From contig JALTLF010000226.1 in assembly GCA_027005735.1 (NCBI GenBank), positions 1-34,138 of the forward strand: 34,138 bases of DNA. The letters run 5' to 3'. Shown piece after piece: positions 4 to 22,608 of this stretch. Below the pieces are notes generated by a model, which was given only the letters and a program-made list of their open reading frames with translations, was not told the origin of the DNA and made no database searches. Numbering within the stretch: position 1 is the stretch's first letter; every line of letters begins with the position of its first letter. A program made the translations under genes and the position numbers. The stretch comes from Chromatiales bacterium. Its GTDB lineage: Bacteria; Pseudomonadota; Gammaproteobacteria; CAMYNG01.

Positions 4-3000
4 TCAGCCAAGCCAGACCCGCGCATTGCGGAACAGGCGCATCCAGGGGCCGTCTTCGCCCCACTCATCCGGGTGCCAGGAATTCTGCACCGCGCGGAAC
101 ACGCGTTCCGGGTGCGGCATCATGATGGTAAAGCGCCCGTCGCGGCTGGTCAGGCCCGTAATGCCCTCCGGCGAGCCATTGGGATTGAGGGGATAGGTCT
201 CGGTGGGCCGCCCGTGGTGATCCACGTAACGCAGGGCCACCAGCGCGGCCTCCCGCTGTGCGGCATCGTCGAACTCCACGCGCCCCTCGCCATGGGCCAC
301 GGCCACCGGGATGCGTGAACCGGCCATGCCGGCAAACAGGATGGAAGGACTGTCCACCACTTCCGTGAGCACGAAACGCGCCTCGAACTGCTCGGACAGG
401 TTGCGCTCGAAGCGCGGCCAGTGCTCCGCGCCAGGAATGAGATCACGCAGGTGCGACATCATCTGGCAGCCGTTGCAGACCCCCAGGGCGAAGGTATCCT
501 CGCGCGCGAAAAAGGCGCTGAAGGCGTCGCGGGCGCTGTCGTTGTAGAGGATGGAACGCGCCCAGCCACCACCGGCACCGAGCACGTCGCCGTAGGAGAA
601 GCCGCCGCAGGCGACCAGGCCCTTGAATTCCGCCAGGTCGCGCCGGCCGCCGATGATGTCGCTCATGTGCACGTCGATGGCGCGAAAGCCGGCGCGCTCG
701 AAGGCCGCCGCCATTTCCACCTGCCCATTGACGCCCTGCTCGCGCAGGATGGCCATGGCCGGGCGCGCACCGCGCTGGATGAAGGGCGCGGCGATGTCCT
801 CGTCGATATCGAAGCTGGTGGTGACGCCAAGGCCGGGATCATCGTCGTCGCGCTGGCGCTCGAACTCGCTCCGCGCGCAGGCGGGGTTGTCGCGCAATTC
901 CTGCATCTTCCAGCTCGTCTCCCACCAGGCGGACTGCAGATCGGGGCGCGTCTCGTCCAGCAGGGTCTGGTGGTCACGGCGGAACCGGATGCGGTCCGCG
1001 TCGTTGAGCGTGCCGATGACATGGGTGTGATGGCCAAGCCCCGCGTCGTGGCACCAGGCAAGGACCTCGTCGGTGTCGCAGTGACGCACCTGCAGGACCG
1101 CGCCCAGTTCCTCGCTGAACAGCACGGCGAGGGGATCGGCATCGAAGTCGTCCAGTTGCACGTCGATGCCGCAGTGGCCGGCAAAGGCCATCTCGCAGAG
1201 GGTGGCGAAGAGGCCGCCGTCGGAACGGTCGTGGTAGGCGAGCAGCAGGCGGCGCTCGTTGAGCGACTGGACGAGATCGAAGAAGGCCACCAGGCTTTGC
1301 GGGTTGTCCAGATCGGCGGGGTGGTGCCCCAGTTGCTTGTAGACCTGCGCCAGGCAGGAGGCGCCGAGGCGGTGGCTGCCGCGCCCCAGGTCGATGAGGA
1401 TCAGATCGGTATCGCCCCGGTCGGTGCGCAACTGCGGCGTCAGGGTGCGGCGCGCGTCCAGCACCGGCGCAAAGGCGGAGATGATCAGCGACAGGGGCGC
1501 GGTCACCGCGTGTTCCCCGTCCTCGTCCTGCCAGACGGTCTTCATGGACATGGAATCCTTGCCCACCGGGATGGCGATCCCCAGTTGCGGGCACAACTCC
1601 ATGCCCACCGCGCGCACCGCGTCGTAGAGGCCGGCGTCCTCGCCGGGATGGCCCGCCGGCGCCATCCAGTTGGCCGACAGCACCACGTCGCCGAGCCGCT
1701 CGATGCGCGCCGCCGCCAGGTTGGTGATGGCCTCGGCCACCGCCATGCGTGCCGAGGCGGCATGGTGCAACAGGGCCACGGGCGTGCGCTCGCCCATGGC
1801 CATGGCCTCGCCCCGGTGGGTGTCGAAACTGCTGGTGGTCACCGCCACGTCCGCCACCGGCACCTGCCAGGGACCGACGAGCTGGTCACGGGCAATGAGC
1901 CCCGTCACCGAGCGATCGCCGATGGTGATGAGGAACTGCTTGGCCGCCACGGTGGGCAGGCGCAGGACGCGGTAGGCCGCCTCGCGCAGATCGATGCCCG
2001 TGGCATCGAAGTCGGGCTTGTGGAAGGGGTGGTGGTGCGCCTCGCGCAGCATCTTGGGCGGCTTGCCGAGCAAGACCTCGAGGGGCATGTCGATGGGGGT
2101 GTTGTCGAAGTGACCGTCACCGAGGACCAGGCGCAGTTCCCCGGTGGCCTCGCCCACCACGGCCCAGGGGCAACGCTCGCGCTCGCAGATGGCGGCAAAG
2201 CGTTCCAGGTCCTCGCTGGCGACGGCCAGCACATAGCGTTCCTGCGCCTCGTTGCACCAGATCTCCATGGGAGACATGCCGGGCTCGTCATTGGGTATGG
2301 CGCGCAACTCGAAACGCCCGCCGCGGCTGCTGTCGTGCACCAGTTCGGGGAAGGCATTGGACAGGCCGCCGGCGCCGACGTCATGGATACTGATGATGGG
2401 GTTGTCCTCGCCCTGTTGCCAGCAGCGATCGATGACCTCCTGGGCGCGGCGCTGGATCTCGGGATTGCCGCGCTGCACGGAGGCGAAGTCCAGGTCCTCG
2501 TGGCTCTCGCCGCTGCTCATGCTCGAGGCCGCGCCGCCGCCGAGGCCAATGAGCATGGCCGGACCACCCAGCACCACCAGTTGCGCGCCGACCGGAATGT
2601 CTCCCTTGTCGATGTGTTCCGCGCGAATGTTGCCCAGTCCCCCGGCAAGCATGATGGGCTTGTGGTAGCCACGCACTTCCTCGCCCGTGGGCGCCGGCAC
2701 CTTTTCCTCGTAGGTGCGGAAGTAGCCGCAGATGTTGGGCCGCCCGAATTCGTTGTTGAAGGCCGCGGCGCCGATGGGGCCTTCGAGCATGATGTCCAGC
2801 GCCGAGGCAATGCGCGCCGGCTTGCCGTGGTCCGTCTCCCAGGGCTGCTCGTGGCCCGGCAGGCGCAGATTGGAAACGCTGAAACCGCACAGCCCGGCCT
2901 TGGGCCGCGAACCGCGTCCAGTGGCGCCCTCGTCGCGGATCTCGCCGCCGGAGCCGGTGGCCGCGCCGGGGAAAGGCGAGATGGCGGTGGGGTGGTTGTG

Positions 3001-3888
3001 GGTCTCCACCTTCATGAGGATGTGGATGTCCTCGTCGTGGTATCCGTACTCGCCGTCCTCCGGGCCGGGGAAGAAACGCCCGGCGCGGTGACCGCGGATC
3101 ACGGCGGAGTTGTCGTGATAGGCCGACAGCACCCTCCCCGGGTTCTGCGCGTGGGTGTTGCGGATCATGCCGAACAGGGAACGGGACTGGCGCTGGCCGT
3201 CGATGATCCAGTCGGCATTGAAGATCTTGTGACGGCAGTGCTCGGAGTTGGCCTGCGCGAACATCATCAGTTCCACGTCGCTGGGGTTGCGCCCCAGCGC
3301 GGTGAAGTTATCCACCAGGTAGTCGATCTCGTCTTCGGCCAGCGCCAGGCCAAGACGGGTATTGGCCAGCGCCAGGGCCTCGCGTCCCCCGCCGAGGACA
3401 TCCACCACGCTCATGGGCGCGGGCGCCTCCTCGCGGAACAGCAGGGCGGCGTCGTCGAGGCTGTCCAGCGCCACCTCGGTCATGCGGTCGTGGAGCAGTC
3501 CGCGTACCTCCAGCAGCTCGTGCTCGCTGAGCGCCTGCCGGCTGGGCAGCAGGTAGAGGATACCGCGCTCGATGCGCTCCACCGCCCGCAGGCCGCAATT
3601 GTGCGCAATGTCGGTGGCCTTGCTCGACCACGGGGAGATGGTACCGGGGCGCGGCACCACCAGCACCAGGGCCTCGAACTGGTCGGACTGGAAACGGGAC
3701 GGCGGGCCGTAGTCCAGCAGGCTGGCGAGACGGCGCTCTTCGTCCTTGCTCAGGGCGCGATCGAGCTGGACGAAGTGGCGATATTCCCCGCCGACATCCG
3801 AGATCGCCGGTGCGACGGCGCGAAGGGATGCAAGCAACTTTTCCTTGCGGAAGGCAGAGAGCGCATTCGCGCCGCGTAACTGCAACAT
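4..3888 (-). CDS. purL: Phosphoribosylformylglycinamidine synthase, single-chain PurL
   Basis: The 1294-aa product catalyses the fourth step of de novo purine synthesis in the cytosol: FGAR + glutamine + ATP to FGAM. Its length matches the gammaproteobacterial single-chain enzyme (about 1295 aa). The order is an N-terminal PurS-like part, two AIRS-like synthase halves (for example the [19 protein letters not shown] region and [12 protein letters not shown]), then a C-terminal class I glutaminase. The nucleophile lies in GVCNGCQMM (Cys about 1138) and the His/Glu of the triad in MMPHPERVF (about 1259/1261). The ATG at 3888 has a modest AGG upstream. It lies 107 nt downstream of three DUF2173 genes on the same strand, but may use its own promoter. 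The stop codon is at 4-6, so the gene is complete. Functional link to the DUF2173 genes is not evident. Confidence 0.97.
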
Positions 3889-3995: not shown

Positions 3996-4328
3996 CTACC
4001 AGTGGGCCGCCTCCTTGAGGCGCGCCATGACTTCGTTGAGCGAGCCCTCCTGGTTGCTGAAGACGCACACCAGGTTGGCCACGCTGCACACCGTGGTCTC
4101 CGGGCCCCGCACGATCCAGCCATCGGGCGGCGTCCAGCCGCGCATCTGGGTGAACATGGACAGCTGGTCGGCGTTGCCCTGCACGATGCGCTTGTAGTCA
4201 TGGGCGAACTTGCTCAGGCCCACCATCTGTTCCTCGGGCATCATGCCGAAACCCCGCACGAAGGCGCCGTCGTCGCGGAACTGGCAGATCGCCATGACAC
4301 CGTCGATGGCCAACAAGCGTTCAATCAT
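3996..4328 (-). CDS. DUF2173 family protein, copy 1 (promoter-distal)
   Basis: A 110-aa cytosolic protein without signal peptide or membrane segment. It resembles DUF2173, a small family of unknown function that I place near the Roadblock/LC7 fold (inference). Its C-terminal half carries GWIVRG, TVC and VANLVC followed by SLNEVM, almost the same pattern as the copy at 4730-5086, so the two are clear paralogues. Two cysteines sit in the shared motif and another is in AICQF near residue 15. It is the last of three tandem genes; 12 nt separate it from the middle copy. The ATG at 4328 is close behind the upstream stop. A specific role is unknown. The family is frequent in sulfur-oxidising proteobacteria, which is recalled and not shown here. 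Confidence 0.8.
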   Translation of the reverse strand: MIERLLAIDGVMAICQFRDDGAFVRGFGMMPEEQMVGLSKFAHDYKRIVQGNADQLSMFTQMRGWTPPDGWIVRGPETTVCSVANLVCVFSNQEGSLNEVMARLKEAAHW

Positions 4329-4340
4329 GGCTGCTCCCCG

Positions 4341-4676
4341 TCAGCTGAGGGCGGCGTAGGCCGCATCGAAATCCGCCTTGTCATTGGGCACGATGACGCC
4401 GCGGTGTTCATGGACGATGGCGGTCCATTCGAAACCGACGAGGGAAAACCCCTGGATGGGATAGAAACCCGCCATGCCGGTCATCTTTTCCCAGCCGCGC
4501 GCCTGCATGGTGGCAATCGCCATGTTGGCGACACAGACGTGGCACAGCAGGTCGAGGATATCCTCGTCGAGACCCGAGCCCTCCGCGATGCGATGCTCGC
4601 CAAGCTCACCACCATCGGAAAACTCGAAGGCGCCGAGCGCACCATCGAGTTTCATCAATTCATCCAGGCTGGCCAT
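4341..4676 (-). CDS. DUF2173 family protein, copy 2 (divergent)
   Basis: A 111-aa soluble protein. Its N-terminus, MASLDELMKLDGALGAFEFSDGGEL, follows the same plan as the two neighbouring genes (short helix, then xGAxxAxEFxxxG), so it belongs to the DUF2173-like group. It has lost the GW-VRG and TVC/AN-C motif of the other two; the corresponding stretch reads GFSLVGFEWTAIV. Two cysteines occur together in LLCHVCVAN. The start at 4676 has an aGGAGAGG-type Shine-Dalgarno in the preceding 15 nt. It is the middle gene of the triplet, about 50 nt from copy 3 and 12 nt from copy 1. The divergence suggests a specialised partner, perhaps a heteromeric subunit; this is inference. Confidence 0.72.
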   Translation of the reverse strand: MASLDELMKLDGALGAFEFSDGGELGEHRIAEGSGLDEDILDLLCHVCVANMAIATMQARGWEKMTGMAGFYPIQGFSLVGFEWTAIVHEHRGVIVPNDKADFDAAYAALS

Positions 4677-4729
4677 ATTCCTCTCCTGATATGTGTTTTT
4701 CTGTCGTTATTAATCTGCTGCCGGCAAGT

Positions 4730-5086
4730 TCAGACCAGCGCGCCTTCCTGATCGGCGATATTCTCGCGCATGGTACGCATGACCTCGTTGAGCGAGGCCT
4801 GGCTGTTGTCGAGAAAGCAGAAGACGTTGGCGATCACGCACACGGTAAAAGCCGTGCCGCGCACTACCCAGCCGCGCGCCGGCGCACAACCGCAGTCCTT
4901 GCCCAGCGACTTTATCATGTCCACCTGCATGTGCACGGCCATGGTCGTGGCACGACACATGATGGAAGCCATGCGCGCCTTTTCATCGTCGAGCTGTCCC
5001 TCGTAGGAGAAACGATCACCGCGATAGGAATATTCCCCGGCAGCGATGACTCCCTGCATGGCGGCCAGTTGACTGACTAGACTCAT
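4730..5086 (-). CDS. DUF2173 family protein, copy 3 (promoter-proximal)
   Basis: An open frame begins upstream (5152), but the ATG at 5086 is preferred. It is preceded by a strong GGGGGA Shine-Dalgarno at ideal spacing, and the encoded 118-aa N-terminus (MSLVSQLAAMQGVIAAGEYSYRG cut here) aligns with the starts of the other two copies; moreover the longer start would lie inside the -10 box. The protein has a CGCAP segment, then GWVVRG, TVC, IANVFC and SLNEVM, shared with the copy at 3996-4328. It has no transmembrane segment. It is the first gene of the triplet, behind the promoter at 5152-5180. Function is unknown; a Roadblock-like fold is suspected, which would make it a candidate binding or regulatory subunit. 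Confidence 0.78.
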   Translation of the reverse strand: MSLVSQLAAMQGVIAAGEYSYRGDRFSYEGQLDDEKARMASIMCRATTMAVHMQVDMIKSLGKDCGCAPARGWVVRGTAFTVCVIANVFCFLDNSQASLNEVMRTMRENIADQEGALV

Positions 5087-5151
5087 TGCTTCCCCCTTTG
5101 TCCGTCCCTGCGCTGTGAACGGCCCGCTACGATGAATGTATCCTGCAGGCA

Positions 5152-5180
5152 ATTAAAACGGCAGTACCGGGAATTTTCAA
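5152..5180 (-). promoter_or_regulatory. Sigma-70-type promoter of the DUF2173 triplet
   Basis: On the minus strand, TTGAAA (5180-5175) and TTTAAT (5157-5152) are separated by exactly 17 nt. The predicted start lies about 60 nt upstream of the ATG at 5086. Both boxes are close to consensus in an otherwise GC-rich region, which makes a chance match less likely. The -10 box also excludes the longer reading of copy 3. Confidence 0.6.
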
Positions 5181-8298: not shown

Positions 8299-9810
8299 AT
8301 GGAAATCAAGGTCAAGCATACCGACATCAGGCAGCACAGGACGGACTGTGCGGTGATCCCGGTGTACGAGAAACGCAGGCTGTCGGCTGCCGGCAAGGCG
8401 CTGGACGAGCTGGCCAATGGCGCCCTCGGCCGTGTCCTGCGCAGCGGCGATCTCGATGGCAGGCGTGGTCAGTCGCGCCTCCTGCCCGCCATGGAGGGCC
8501 TGCCCTGCGCGCGAGTACTGTTGCTCGGCCTCGGCCGGGAGAAGGATCTGAACGAGCGCGGCTTCCGTGATGCCGTCACGCTCGCCTGGCGCGTCCTGCA
8601 GGACACCGGCAGCCGTGACGCCACCTTCTACCTCGGCGAGTCAAAGGTCGGCAAGCAGGGTGAGGAATGGAACATCTACCAGGCCGCGCGCCTGTTGCGC
8701 CTTGCCAGCTACCGCTACACCGCCACCCGCAGCGACGACAGGGCGCCAAAGGCCGCCCTGCGCCGGGTGGTCCTCGACGTCGCCGACAAGCGTCACCTGC
8801 CGCGCGCCCGTCGCGCACTGGCCGAGGGCGACGCGACGGGCGAAGGCATGAATCTGGCCCGCGAGCTGGGCAACCTGCCGGGCAACATCTGCACACCGAG
8901 CCACCTCGCCAGCGAGGCGCGCAAGCTGGCGAAGGGCTGCGAGTCCATGCGCGTACAGGTGCTGGACCAGAAGGCGATGGAGAAACTGGGCATGGGTTCG
9001 CTGCTCTCCGTGGCGAAGGGTTCGCGCCAGCCTCCGCGCTTCATCATCCTCGAGTACCGGGGCGCCAGGGGCACAAAGGCCAAACCCCTGCGTCCCATCG
9101 TGCTGGTGGGCAAGGGCATCACCTTCGACTCGGGGGGCGTCTCCATCAAGCCCTCCGCCGCCATGGACGAGATGAAGTTCGACATGTGCGGCGCCGCCAG
9201 CGTCCTCGGCACCTTCCGCGCCCTCGCGCAACTGCAACCGAAGGTACACGTGGTCGGCCTGGTACCCAGTTGCGAAAACATGCCCGACGGCGCCGCCAAC
9301 AAGCCCGGCGACGTGGTCACATCCATGTCGGGCAAGACCATCGAAGTACTCAACACCGACGCCGAGGGCCGCCTGATCCTCTGCGACGCACTCACCTACG
9401 CTGAGAAATACCAGCCCCGCGCCGTCATCGATATCGCCACTCTCACCGGCGCCTGCGTGGTGGCGCTCGGCAAGCACGCCACCGGCATGCTGGGCAACGA
9501 CGAGCGGCTCATGCATGAACTCGAACGACACGGCCAGGATACCGGCGACCGCGTGTGGCAACTGCCACTGTGGGAGGAATATCAGGATCAACTGAAAAGC
9601 AATTTCGCCGACATCGCCAACATCGGCGGGCGTGATGCCGGCACCATTACCGCCGCCTGCTTCCTCTCGCGCTTTACCGAGAAGATGAAATGGGCACACC
9701 TGGACATCGCCGGCACCGCCTGGCACTCGGGAGAGAAGAAGGGCGCCACCGGTAGACCCGTTCCCCTGTTGACGCGTTACATTCTCAGCAAGGCGGTGAA
9801 AAAATCGTGA
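8299..9810 (+). CDS. pepA: Leucyl aminopeptidase, M17 family
   Basis: The 503-aa cytosolic metallo-aminopeptidase removes N-terminal residues from peptides; in E. coli the same protein also binds DNA for Xer recombination and carAB control. The C-terminal catalytic domain has the M17 signature NTDAEGRL at 352-359 and the metal/active-site segment GKGITFDSGG at 271-280, with a second metal-binding run (MDEMKFDMCGAA) after it. The N-terminal domain (about 1-160) is the variable M17 domain. The ATG at 8299 has a GGAG 6 nt upstream; 15 upstream in-frame codons are not family-like. It overlaps holC by four bases (GTGA) and diverges from lptFG. Confidence 0.96.
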   Translation: MEIKVKHTDIRQHRTDCAVIPVYEKRRLSAAGKALDELANGALGRVLRSGDLDGRRGQSRLLPAMEGLPCARVLLLGLGREKDLNERGFRDAVTLAWRVLQDTGSRDATFYLGESKVGKQGEEWNIYQAARLLRLASYRYTATRSDDRAPKAALRRVVLDVADKRHLPRARRALAEGDATGEGMNLARELGNLPGNICTPSHLASEARKLAKGCESMRVQVLDQKAMEKLGMGSLLSVAKGSRQPPRFIILEYRGARGTKAKPLRPIVLVGKGITFDSGGVSIKPSAAMDEMKFDMCGAASVLGTFRALAQLQPKVHVVGLVPSCENMPDGAANKPGDVVTSMSGKTIEVLNTDAEGRLILCDALTYAEKYQPRAVIDIATLTGACVVALGKHATGMLGNDERLMHELERHGQDTGDRVWQLPLWEEYQDQLKSNFADIANIGGRDAGTITAACFLSRFTEKMKWAHLDIAGTAWHSGEKKGATGRPVPLLTRYILSKAVKKS

Positions 9811-18412: not shown

Positions 18413-19843
18413 TCACTGCGGGCCTTTCATCTCCCGCGCCAGACGCAGAACCATGAAGGCGACGATGCCCACGCCGAGCACCAGCACGGTCCACAGGACG
18501 AGACGCCGCCAGGGAACCACCGTGGGCGCCACCATCTGTCCCTGCCCACCGAGTTCGATCTCCTCGCCTGCCTGGGCGGCCTTGACGAAACCGGCCTCGC
18601 TATCCTCGCCCAGCTGGCGCAACAGGGCGGGGATGGCGGAACCCGCCGGCGCCACCCCGGCGGCACCGTAGGCAATGCGGAAGGGCGCCTCGCCACTGGC
18701 CATGAAGAGTAACTGGTGCGGCCGCCAGCCCACGGCCAGCTCGATGCCGCCCACGCTATCGGCCTCGTCGGCGGCCAGTTCCACGCGCCAGTAGCGATCC
18801 TGCGTGGGCGAGATCCGCAGCACCGGGTTTTCCACCTCCTCGCCCTGCACCGTCAGCCGGTAGATCACGCCCGCATACCGCTGCCGCCACGGGGCCGCGG
18901 GATCGTCGCGCGACAGGACGGTGACGCGCGCCACGCTGTTGGCACTGGCCAGCCGCAGGCGCAGGCGATCCACGGGCAGGAAGGCGGCGGCATCGTACTC
19001 GAGCCAGGCCAGGCCACCGTCGCCGCGCCGGATTTGCCCGGCGCCGTCGAGGCGCGTCCAGCGGCGCGCCGACTCGCGCAGGGATCCGCCGAAACCGGCA
19101 CGGATGCTGCGCAACAGCACGTTCTGCGCGCCTGCCGGCCAGCTGATCTTCAGATAGCGCGCACGCAGGCCCGCCACCTCGATCCGGCGACGTTGCAGTT
19201 CGTTGCCGTCGAAGCGAAAGTGCGACAGCGTGGTCGCGGGAACCACCGTGCGCCAGTTGTCCAGATCATCGCTGGCGCTGATGGAGACCCGGGTGGCGAA
19301 ACTGTCCGGCGCCCCCTGCCAGTCGAACTCCAGCCAGTCCGGTCCCCTCGCCGCCGCCGTATTCTCCCCCCCTTCCAGCGCCGGACCGAGATCCACCACG
19401 TAGGCATACACCACCTTGCCCTGCCCCACGCTCGCCGGCGAACCCCCGCTGATGTCGATGATGGTGCCGCCCGCATCGGTGACGATGCGCACCTCCGGCG
19501 CCGTGGCGGCGCCACCGCCCGCCTCGCGGTAGACGGGAAACAGTTTCAGCGTTACCGGTTCCCGCGTGACGGTCTGCGTGTCCTTCTCGCGGCGCAACAG
19601 GTGAGGCACCACGGCATTGTTGCTGTTGAAGACACGCAGGTCGCCGAGATCCCGGCGGGTCACATGGCGATACACCTGCTCGGGCAGTTCGAGGCTGTAG
19701 ATGGCGCCGTCGCCGTCCACCTCGAGAGGAATGCCCCAGGCGAAGTCCTGGGGCGTGAGCCGCTCGCCATCCGCGACGGCGACGCCCGGCGTCCCCGTGA
19801 CCAGGCCACAACACAGTACCAGGCTGTATAACAAAGGTTTCAT
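18413..19843 (-). CDS. DUF3999 family exported membrane-anchored protein
   Basis: The 476-aa product begins with a signal peptide (MKPLLYSLVLCCGLVTGTPG, cleavage near 25), has a large periplasmic part rich in beta strands, including discoidin-like stretches (ISASDDLDNWRTVVP; ARYLKISW), and ends with a single transmembrane segment at about 447-466 before a basic tail. This is the DUF3999 layout. The frame remains open far upstream, but the ATG at 19843 overlaps the DUF2339 stop (ATGA) and starts the signal peptide, so it is the true start. The DUF2339-DUF3999 pair is recurrent in proteobacteria (recalled); together they probably form an envelope complex. Confidence 0.88.
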   Translation of the reverse strand: MKPLLYSLVLCCGLVTGTPGVAVADGERLTPQDFAWGIPLEVDGDGAIYSLELPEQVYRHVTRRDLGDLRVFNSNNAVVPHLLRREKDTQTVTREPVTLKLFPVYREAGGGAATAPEVRIVTDAGGTIIDISGGSPASVGQGKVVYAYVVDLGPALEGGENTAAARGPDWLEFDWQGAPDSFATRVSISASDDLDNWRTVVPATTLSHFRFDGNELQRRRIEVAGLRARYLKISWPAGAQNVLLRSIRAGFGGSLRESARRWTRLDGAGQIRRGDGGLAWLEYDAAAFLPVDRLRLRLASANSVARVTVLSRDDPAAPWRQRYAGVIYRLTVQGEEVENPVLRISPTQDRYWRVELAADEADSVGGIELAVGWRPHQLLFMASGEAPFRIAYGAAGVAPAGSAIPALLRQLGEDSEAGFVKAAQAGEEIELGGQGQMVAPTVVPWRRLVLWTVLVLGVGIVAFMVLRLAREMKGPQ

Positions 19844-22608
19844 GCCTCTTTCTCCTTGTCCGCGGGCAGGTGCGAGAAGTATCCCGCTGCCACGTAAACC
19901 GCACCCACCACGAGGAAGGTCATGATGACCTCCAGTTCCTCGCGGTTGGCGAGATCGATGAAAAACAGTTTCGCCAGTGTCAGGCCCACCAGCGACAGGG
20001 CGACGATACGCATGGCGCGGTTTGCCAGCCGCCCGGCCAGGATGAGCAGCACCAGCGCCGTCACGCCCCAGAGAATGGCGATCCCCGACTGGAAGGCGGT
20101 GGAGCGCGCCAGGGAAGCCAGGCTCCAGTACACGCCATCCGAAAAGTGATAGACCCCGCGCGCGACCACCGTGTTGAGCCACAGGAAGGCGGTGCCGCCC
20201 ATGAAGATCACCAGCAGTTGCGGCATCTCCGCCAGATGGCGCCGCAGCCAGTTCTTCTCGCGCAGGAACCACAACACGATCCCCACCATCACGGCAAGCT
20301 GCGAGAGTTCCAGCGGGTTGAGCACCGGGATATAGGGCAGGAAGCGGGTCGCGCCCGACAACTGCAACATGGTGAGCAGGGCCCAGCCCCAGGCCCACAG
20401 CACCATGGCCACGCCGCCGGCGCGCCGCCAGGCCCAGTCGTGATCCCGCACCGGCCAGCGCCGCGCAAGGGCGGCCCGTGCCGGCAGGTAGAGGAACAGT
20501 AGCGGCACCAGTCCCCAGACACTCACGCTCCAGACCTTGCCGGCATGCACCACGTCGTCCAGCAGCCAGGAAAGCTCGATGGCCACCGCGATGGCGACAT
20601 AGATGAACGCCGCCAGGTGCTGGGCCGCCAGCGTGCCGCGACTGAAGTGAAACCGCTCGGCGTAGCGCAGCATCCAGGCCGTCAGGGCGAACACCGGCAA
20701 CCAGAAGACGGCATCCCAGCCGGCGAGAAAATGGAAACTGCTGCGCCCGAACACCATGATGAGGGTAAAGAGGTAGAGCAGGCCCACCTGGAAGAGCATG
20801 GGGTAGCGCAGCAGCGGCCAGCGCAGTGGCGGGGCCAGGCGCGTCATCAGGGCGAAGCTGGCGCCGATCACGGCGAGCGCCGCAAGCGCCTCGTAGCGGG
20901 TCGGCACCTGGTCGATGACCTCGTTGAGCGTGGTGCCGAACCACCACAACACGCCCCACAGGAACATCACCACGTGGTAGAAGCCCTCGAAGGCATGCAG
21001 CTCGTCGCGCCGCCGGTAGAGGTACCAGCCGGAGAACAGGGCCGCGAGACTGATCAGGATGCCGCCGAGAAAGACGCCGTTCCACACCGGCAGGGCATCG
21101 AAACCGAAATCGTGCCCGTGGGCGTAAAACACCCCCGCGGCCAGTTGCAGCAGCAGGCCGAAATTGCGCGCCAGCCAGCGTGCCTGGCGCACGCCGAGCC
21201 AGACCAGCGCCGCTCCCTCCATGGCCCAGGCCGCCGAGGACCAGCGCCCGTCGAGCGCCAGGGGAATGGCCAGGGTGCCGAAGACCACCGCCATGGCGAG
21301 GAAGGATTCCGTCAGCAGGCGCATGACCCGCCGCGTCGCCTCGCTGCCGCGCGCCCACAACGCCCGCGCCAGCACGATATAAAAGAACGCCAGCGCCAGC
21401 GCGCTGAGGGCCATGCCGTACTCGTAGCGATAGACCATGCCACCCTGCAGCGCGGCGGTGACGATGGGCGTACCGAACACCAGCGTGCCGTCAACGTAGC
21501 CGCGAAAACCCTCCGGTTGGCGGAAGGCAAACAGCACCGCGATGGCGACATACATGAGAAAGAACAGGATCAGGAACGGCTCGGTGGTGGCGAAGAAGGC
21601 CGGCTCGTAGCGCGTCACGCCCCAGAACGAACCGATGCCGAAGGTGAACAGGAAGCCGAGCAGGTTGAGCTCGCGCCAGCTGCGATACCAGGCCACCGAG
21701 AGAATACCGAGGTTGAGCAGGGCATAGAAACCGAACAGGGCCACATAGTCGTTGCTACCGGTGGACAACAGAATGGGGGTGAGGAAACCGCCCGCAGCGC
21801 CGAACAGGGCCAGCGACTTCGCGTCCTGCAACAGGGCCAGCGCGGTGGAGAGGATCACCAGCGCCACCATGAGCGCGAAGGCCATGCCCAGGGGCACCAT
21901 CCCGAACAGCTTCGCCGCGCCGAACACGGTGATATACATGATGCCGACACCACCACCCTGCAACAGCAGGGCGAAGGTCTGGCGCCGGTGCCGTTGGCGC
22001 CAGCCGAGCACCAGCAGCACCAGCCCGCCGACGGCGGCACCCAGCAGCCGCGCCTCGATGGAGAGCATGTCATGCTGCACCGCGTAGCGCAGCAGGAAAC
22101 CGACACCGACGAAGAGCACCAGCAGGCCGACGCGCACCACCACGTTGCCGTCGGTAAAGAAGCCCCTGATGAAGGCAAACAGCTTGCCGAACATCTCCTC
22201 GGCCGGACCCGGCGGATGCACCCTGCCCGGCTGGATGGACTGCGGTCGTGGCCTCGCCGGCGCGGTCGGTTCCATGGCAGGCGTTTCCGGCGGCAACGCG
22301 ATGGCGGGCGGCACCGGTTTCGCTTCCGCCTGCGGTTCCATTTCCGGTTTCGTTTCCGTCACCGGCACGGAGACCGCGCCGGCTTCCGCGGGTCGGCTAT
22401 CGCTGGCGGCTTCCCGCTCCTCCCCTTTGAGCCGCTCTTCCAGTTGTGCAAGACGCTGGCGCAACTCGCGATTGTGGCGCGCCACGTCGCCCACCCAGCC
22501 GAACAGGTAGCCGATGAACAGGCCGCTCAGGACACCGCCGAAACTCAGGGACGCCAGGCCGAGGACAAAGGCCCCCACCAGCGCCAGAATGATCCCGATT
22601 ACCGACAT
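19840..22608 (-). CDS. DUF2339 family giant polytopic membrane protein
   Basis: A 922-aa protein. An N-terminal hydrophobic segment (1-35) precedes a charged helix (about 44-68, RELRQRLAQLEERLKGEE), a Pro/Glu/Ala-rich linker (about 72-135), and then more than twenty hydrophobic segments up to residue 915, the hallmark of DUF2339. The ATG at 22608 follows AAAGGAG. Function is unknown. The linker may be periplasmic or cytosolic; topology cannot be decided by eye. It overlaps the DUF3999 gene by four bases, implying coupled synthesis. Confidence 0.9.
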   Translation of the reverse strand: MSVIGIILALVGAFVLGLASLSFGGVLSGLFIGYLFGWVGDVARHNRELRQRLAQLEERLKGEEREAASDSRPAEAGAVSVPVTETKPEMEPQAEAKPVPPAIALPPETPAMEPTAPARPRPQSIQPGRVHPPGPAEEMFGKLFAFIRGFFTDGNVVVRVGLLVLFVGVGFLLRYAVQHDMLSIEARLLGAAVGGLVLLVLGWRQRHRRQTFALLLQGGGVGIMYITVFGAAKLFGMVPLGMAFALMVALVILSTALALLQDAKSLALFGAAGGFLTPILLSTGSNDYVALFGFYALLNLGILSVAWYRSWRELNLLGFLFTFGIGSFWGVTRYEPAFFATTEPFLILFFLMYVAIAVLFAFRQPEGFRGYVDGTLVFGTPIVTAALQGGMVYRYEYGMALSALALAFFYIVLARALWARGSEATRRVMRLLTESFLAMAVVFGTLAIPLALDGRWSSAAWAMEGAALVWLGVRQARWLARNFGLLLQLAAGVFYAHGHDFGFDALPVWNGVFLGGILISLAALFSGWYLYRRRDELHAFEGFYHVVMFLWGVLWWFGTTLNEVIDQVPTRYEALAALAVIGASFALMTRLAPPLRWPLLRYPMLFQVGLLYLFTLIMVFGRSSFHFLAGWDAVFWLPVFALTAWMLRYAERFHFSRGTLAAQHLAAFIYVAIAVAIELSWLLDDVVHAGKVWSVSVWGLVPLLFLYLPARAALARRWPVRDHDWAWRRAGGVAMVLWAWGWALLTMLQLSGATRFLPYIPVLNPLELSQLAVMVGIVLWFLREKNWLRRHLAEMPQLLVIFMGGTAFLWLNTVVARGVYHFSDGVYWSLASLARSTAFQSGIAILWGVTALVLLILAGRLANRAMRIVALSLVGLTLAKLFFIDLANREELEVIMTFLVVGAVYVAAGYFSHLPADKEKEA

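Follow-up and report, generated by a model that had tools for sequence, protein, structure and literature searches.

Roadblock proteins are partners of small GTPases, and in bacteria they are usually encoded by one or two genes. The tri-longin proteins (MON1-CCZ1, Fuzzy-Inturned) contain three consecutive domains that are related to one another. Roadblock proteins are already known from heteromeric complexes (PMC9481161, PMC5696360), and Ragulator (LAMTOR) contains two roadblock heterodimers (PMC5696360). Here we analysed a 34,138-nt stretch of DNA (the window) in which three adjacent genes of the DUF2173 family (PF09941), designated A, B and C, are encoded. The model of C shows the fold of MglB from Myxococcus and Thermus (TM up to 0.79); however, MglB is one gene that occurs with the GTPase MglA, whereas the DUF2173 genes are three paralogues with no adjoining GTPase and no sequence-profile match. 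With Ragulator, the locus shares the fold, as modelled for C, and would share the principle of combining differing Roadblock paralogues in a complex. Ragulator, by contrast, is eukaryotic, has a membrane-anchored subunit that holds it, is bound to Rag GTPases and contains four Roadblock subunits, whereas the DUF2173 set has three. The tri-longin proteins are single long eukaryotic chains and, with a TM of about 0.2, are not a structural match to a joined DUF2173 chain.

Three DUF2173 genes behind a putative promoter

The three genes follow one another on the minus strand of the window, in the order A (4730..5086, 118 aa), B (4341..4676, 111 aa) and C (3996..4328, 110 aa). Each protein matched PF09941 over the whole model (A: 127.7 bits, E = 2.9e-37; B: 110.7 bits, 5.4e-32; C: 120.6 bits, 4.4e-35; curated cut-off, 26.1 bits). 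These results confirmed that three small genes of one family stand in tandem, as the initial annotation had claimed, and that copy 2 (B), which it had singled out for a profile check, belongs to the family with a score far over the cut-off. The motifs that it had listed as common to A and C (GW-VRG, TVC, AN-C and SLNEVM) were real. All 48 family members matched PF09941 in a profile search, and an assembly-wide search of the 2.76-Mb source assembly yielded A, B and C as the only copies; no family was matched when A, B and C were searched against NCBIfam. Between the source genome and a same-genus relative, dN/dS was about 0.02 for A, 0.05 for B and 0.15 for C, and these low values indicate that all three are under purifying selection as proteins.

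A putative promoter, TTGAAA-17-TTTAAT, was located on the minus strand at 5152..5180 (−35 at 5180..5175; −10 at 5157..5152), 65 nt before the start of A. The element proposed earlier was thus present. When the upstream region was aligned with those of four relatives, it fell within the part with the highest conservation; three of the four carry TTGCAA and a TATTAAT/TTTAAT box at the same place. The default sigma-70 scan missed it, because the −10 box TTTAAT lacks an A at position 2. Position and upstream conservation are consistent with a single promoter shared by the three genes, which is still to be regarded as putative. In the scan, the stretch from C to purL contained no terminator-like site.

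Order and phylogeny of the triplet

DUF2173 genes occurred in 10 of 56 relatives, with the source genome counted, and all 10 carried them as a tandem of three or as six genes in two triplets. In the sample of the class, 40 of 321 genomes were carriers, covering about 22 family-level groups; whole triplets were found in 35 of the 40, one genome (G024) having two, and the other five held one or two copies of a divergent type. The sulfur oxidiser Thiohalobacter thiocyanaticus (L036) also has the three genes. Single-copy genes were present in G066, G199, G283 and G302. The divergent one- or two-copy genes (L077-L081) come from sulfur-oxidiser genomes and retain the helix-2 and beta4 cysteines. A wider sample of the phylum contained no further carrier among 299 genomes. 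The family extends to archaea, with PF09941 matches in Sulfolobus acidocaldarius and Methanosarcina acetivorans.

We assigned each protein to a paralogue type by its best match to A, B or C of the window. Type agreed with operon position in 141/141 proteins from 47 triplets of diverse Gammaproteobacteria, and every triplet had the order A-B-C, with no reordered version. In a maximum-likelihood tree, A (a clade of 47), B and C were each set apart from the rest by a single branch (SH-aLRT 71, 96 and 97, respectively, from a short alignment). The agreement of position and type, together with one clade per paralogue, indicates one triplication before the spread of the unit. Judged from the sequences, the triplication is ancient and common to many families, and the local triplication with divergence that had been suggested for this operon was refuted by the same two results. 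Within one genome, A, B and C share a mean identity of only 21-27%.

The genes are closely packed. The B-C junction of the window (4329..4340, minus strand) spans 12 nt in the same frame, and across the triplets the B-C gap was mostly −4 to +14 nt, with a 4-nt overlap in 10 of the 47. The subunits also appear to change as a set: in the five divergent triplets all three are divergent, the two triplets of G024 differ as whole units (59/63/61% versus 35/49/42% identity to the window), and distances among A, B and C correlated at 0.85 to 0.93, partly from shared ancestry. The constant order, the single clade of each paralogue and the short or overlapping B-C spacing strengthen the proposal of a heteromeric complex, although co-inheritance of A, B and C can also reflect shared regulation.

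Predicted fold of the subunits

We modelled C of the window with AlphaFold2 from 48 family members and obtained a model with a pLDDT of 94.8, a pTM of 0.85 and the topology alpha-beta-beta-long alpha-beta-beta-beta-alpha. In the PDB, the top matches of this model were all Roadblock/LC7 proteins, with MglB at a TM of up to 0.79; further matches were Roadblock proteins of Streptomyces and Asgard archaea, LAMTOR subunits and dynein-associated light chains. These matches to solved structures support a Roadblock/LC7 fold for the modelled C, in line with the earlier guess of a Roadblock-like family. At the sequence level, Robl_LC7 (PF03259) was absent among the families matched by the 48 members up to E 10, hhalign of DUF2173 against the MglB-type protein of the source genome gave nothing, and the sequence search returned no solved relatives.

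We also predicted a joined A-B-C chain, an artificial construct derived from a same-genus locus (L031) in which A, B and C stand in one frame, with its two stops read as glycine. The prediction was of moderate confidence (pLDDT 78, pTM 0.66), and in it the elements of A and B succeed one another as in C. The suggested heteromer is strengthened by the ordered triplet; a model of this confidence is too uncertain to fix how the three domains would pack. Foldseek hits of the joined chain to tri-longin proteins were weak (TM about 0.2).

Conservation and cysteine distribution

Conservation was distributed differently in the three subunits. In A, conservation was highest in strand 1 and the early half of helix 2, whereas in B the late half of helix 2, the next loop and strand 3 were highly conserved, with a near-invariant QARGWE in helix 2. 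The same elements (late helix 2, loop and strand 3) were highly conserved in C, whose signatures are FRDDG, YKR, GNADQLSMFT and GWTPP.GW, the last two of them within these elements. In known Roadblock proteins the dimer interface is formed by helix 2 and strand 3, and the pattern would thus fit subunits that differ in how they bind. The C-terminus is [LM]-[VI] in the majority of A proteins and Trp or Tyr in the majority of C proteins; these ends could serve as recognition tails.

A cysteine in helix 2 (Cys44 in A and Cys48 in B of the window) was present in 42/42 A proteins, 36/42 B proteins and 6/6 single-copy members, whereas C has Ala or Gly there. A pair of cysteines in beta4/beta5 was found in A (Cys83 in 42/42, Cys90 in 39/42) and C (Cys81 in 39/41, Cys88 in 38/41) and is replaced by Val, Ile or Leu in B; C carries one further cysteine in beta1. 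The initial annotation had copy 2 without the cysteine motif, which held for the beta4/beta5 pair and not for helix 2, where Cys48 is kept. Its division into two cysteine-containing subunits and one without was consequently incorrect: A has both sites, B the helix-2 site only, and C the beta4/beta5 pair together with the beta1 cysteine. In the C model, the hairpin register would set Cys81 opposite Cys88 (81+88 = 83+86). Members without one beta4/beta5 cysteine usually retain the other, and these partial losses make an obligate disulfide unlikely.

Genomic neighbourhoods

Neighbouring genes varied among the loci examined, and gene names without a profile check rest on a reading of the translations. 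At most of the first 16 loci the triplet was flanked on one side by lptF-lptG-RDD and pepA-holC and on the other by purL or pcnB-folK-panBC. It adjoined petABC in the Solemya symbionts (L038/L040), pyrE in L086/L089 and moeA in L087/L090. In L049 (8067-9127) and L088 (7808-8946), diverged triplets had bioD on one side and ccoN, a cbb3-type oxidase gene, on the other, all on one strand. The triplet of L047 follows sufS and a Rieske protein; this is the second, diverged triplet of G024 (8420-9574), adjoining a cysteine desulfurase and the Rieske protein.

Neither a constant functional neighbour nor a conserved sulfur-metabolism neighbour was found at the loci examined. Assignment of a function by association was rejected, with housekeeping genes only at most loci and differing respiratory or Fe-S genes at the others. 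A-B-C alone was constant across these unrelated settings, which is an argument for regarding the triplet as a functional unit in its own right.

Association with sulfur oxidisers

The source genome has soxB and dsrA, the dsrA of this class being usually of the oxidative, reverse type. In the class sample, soxB was present in 37/40 carriers and 91/281 non-carriers (Fisher P = 1.4e-13, a certainty overstated by the relatedness of the genomes), and a carrier with soxB was found in all but two of the about 22 family-level groups. Carriers were also enriched in dsrA (28/40, one of them partial, versus 69/281 non-carriers), which was rejected as a marker, since roughly one carrier in four lacks it. 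No clear difference was seen for soxC (5/40 versus 9/40), which did not discriminate. The soxB enrichment and the soxB and dsrA of the source genome bear out the previously proposed tie of the family to sulfur oxidisers. The triplet was missing from 91 of 128 soxB genomes, and because so many of them lack it, it is accessory and neither core to nor required for Sox-type oxidation. Elemental sulfur was reported to induce a DUF2173 membrane protein in two archaea, by 99-fold and 32-fold (PMC11323534), which provides an independent link between DUF2173 and sulfur. This was the sole paper found naming DUF2173 in our literature search, which also yielded no description of the ordered triplet.

A proposed heteromeric platform and its alternatives

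We consider it probable (about 60%) that the products of the A-B-C operon bind one another and form, in sulfur oxidisers, a Roadblock platform that is obligately heteromeric. Three ancient, non-interchangeable DUF2173 paralogues would be expressed from one three-gene operon, and their products would assemble with one another into a fixed heteromer, pairing via helix 2 and strand 3 if they behave like known Roadblock proteins. In the cytosol of sulfur-oxidising Gammaproteobacteria, the complex may then serve as a platform for regulation or scaffolding. A more specific form, an obligate heterotrimeric or higher-order Roadblock complex that operates with no Ras-like GTPase of its own and uses its conserved cysteines to signal redox state or reactive sulfur, is speculative and rather unlikely. 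If the platform exists, it would be a set of three Roadblock paralogues that keeps its order within its lineage, stands in unrelated genomic settings, tracks soxB and needs no particular GTPase, suggesting another kind of client, and DUF2173 would gain a testable fold and a physiological context.

Like MglB towards MglA, the subunits might instead act as a Roadblock GAP or co-regulator of a small GTPase of the Ras-like type. The closest structural matches are indeed MglB, also in complex with MglA, and such signalling exists in the source cell, where contig C46 (L092, G000:C46) encodes an MglB-type Roadblock protein (PF03259) and a small GTPase on the minus strand (173-616 and 619-1167), the MglB-type gene lying directly downstream of the GTPase gene (PF03029/Roc-like) at the contig end. 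However, no GTPase gene stood beside the triplets examined, and the C46 type of GTPase was missing from 28/40 carriers; it was not clearly commoner there either, with PF03029-type GTPases in 12/40 carriers versus 7/40 soxB genomes without DUF2173. An Arf profile run on 20 carriers matched only long frames (about 860 and 440 aa), whose lengths suit IF-2 and Der and not small GTPases. For the types searched, no cognate small Ras-like GTPase of the MglA/MglB kind was thus found alongside the triplets or consistently in the carrier genomes. An MglB-like GAP role is not favoured, because the C46 GTPase is already paired with an MglB-type protein and most carriers lack it, and we regard such a role as quite improbable; MglA-like or PF03029-type small GTPases, the partners that Roadblock proteins are known to have in bacteria, are not obligate here.

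Any role of the cysteines would likewise have to be inferred from their conservation and modelled positions. The complex could be a redox or reactive-sulfur sensor in which the beta4/beta5 pairs of A and C form a disulfide or take up sulfane sulfur, since these residues are near-universal (38/41 to 42/42), the hairpin register sets each pair opposite in both models and the carrier genomes are those of sulfur oxidisers. The losses of single cysteines are unlike an obligate disulfide, however, and the residues may simply be buried, as the strands lie beneath the helices in this fold, so that we hold a sensor to be doubtful. Many Roadblock proteins are homodimeric, MglB among them, and A, B and C could be separately acting homodimers that merely share an operon, a stand-alone form evidently being viable given the single-copy DUF2173 genes. 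Against such independence, none of the 47 triplets is reordered, the subunits diverge together, even if their correlations come partly from shared ancestry, and A, B and C differ strongly in the very element expected at the dimer interface; separate homodimers therefore seem unlikely to us, and the heteromeric platform remains our preferred reading.

Other features of the window

Two further open frames were noted in the window. A 1152-aa frame at 421-3879 on the plus strand runs antisense to purL and is most likely a high-GC shadow frame. On the minus strand, 19840-22608 encodes a predicted DUF2339 membrane protein of 922 aa.
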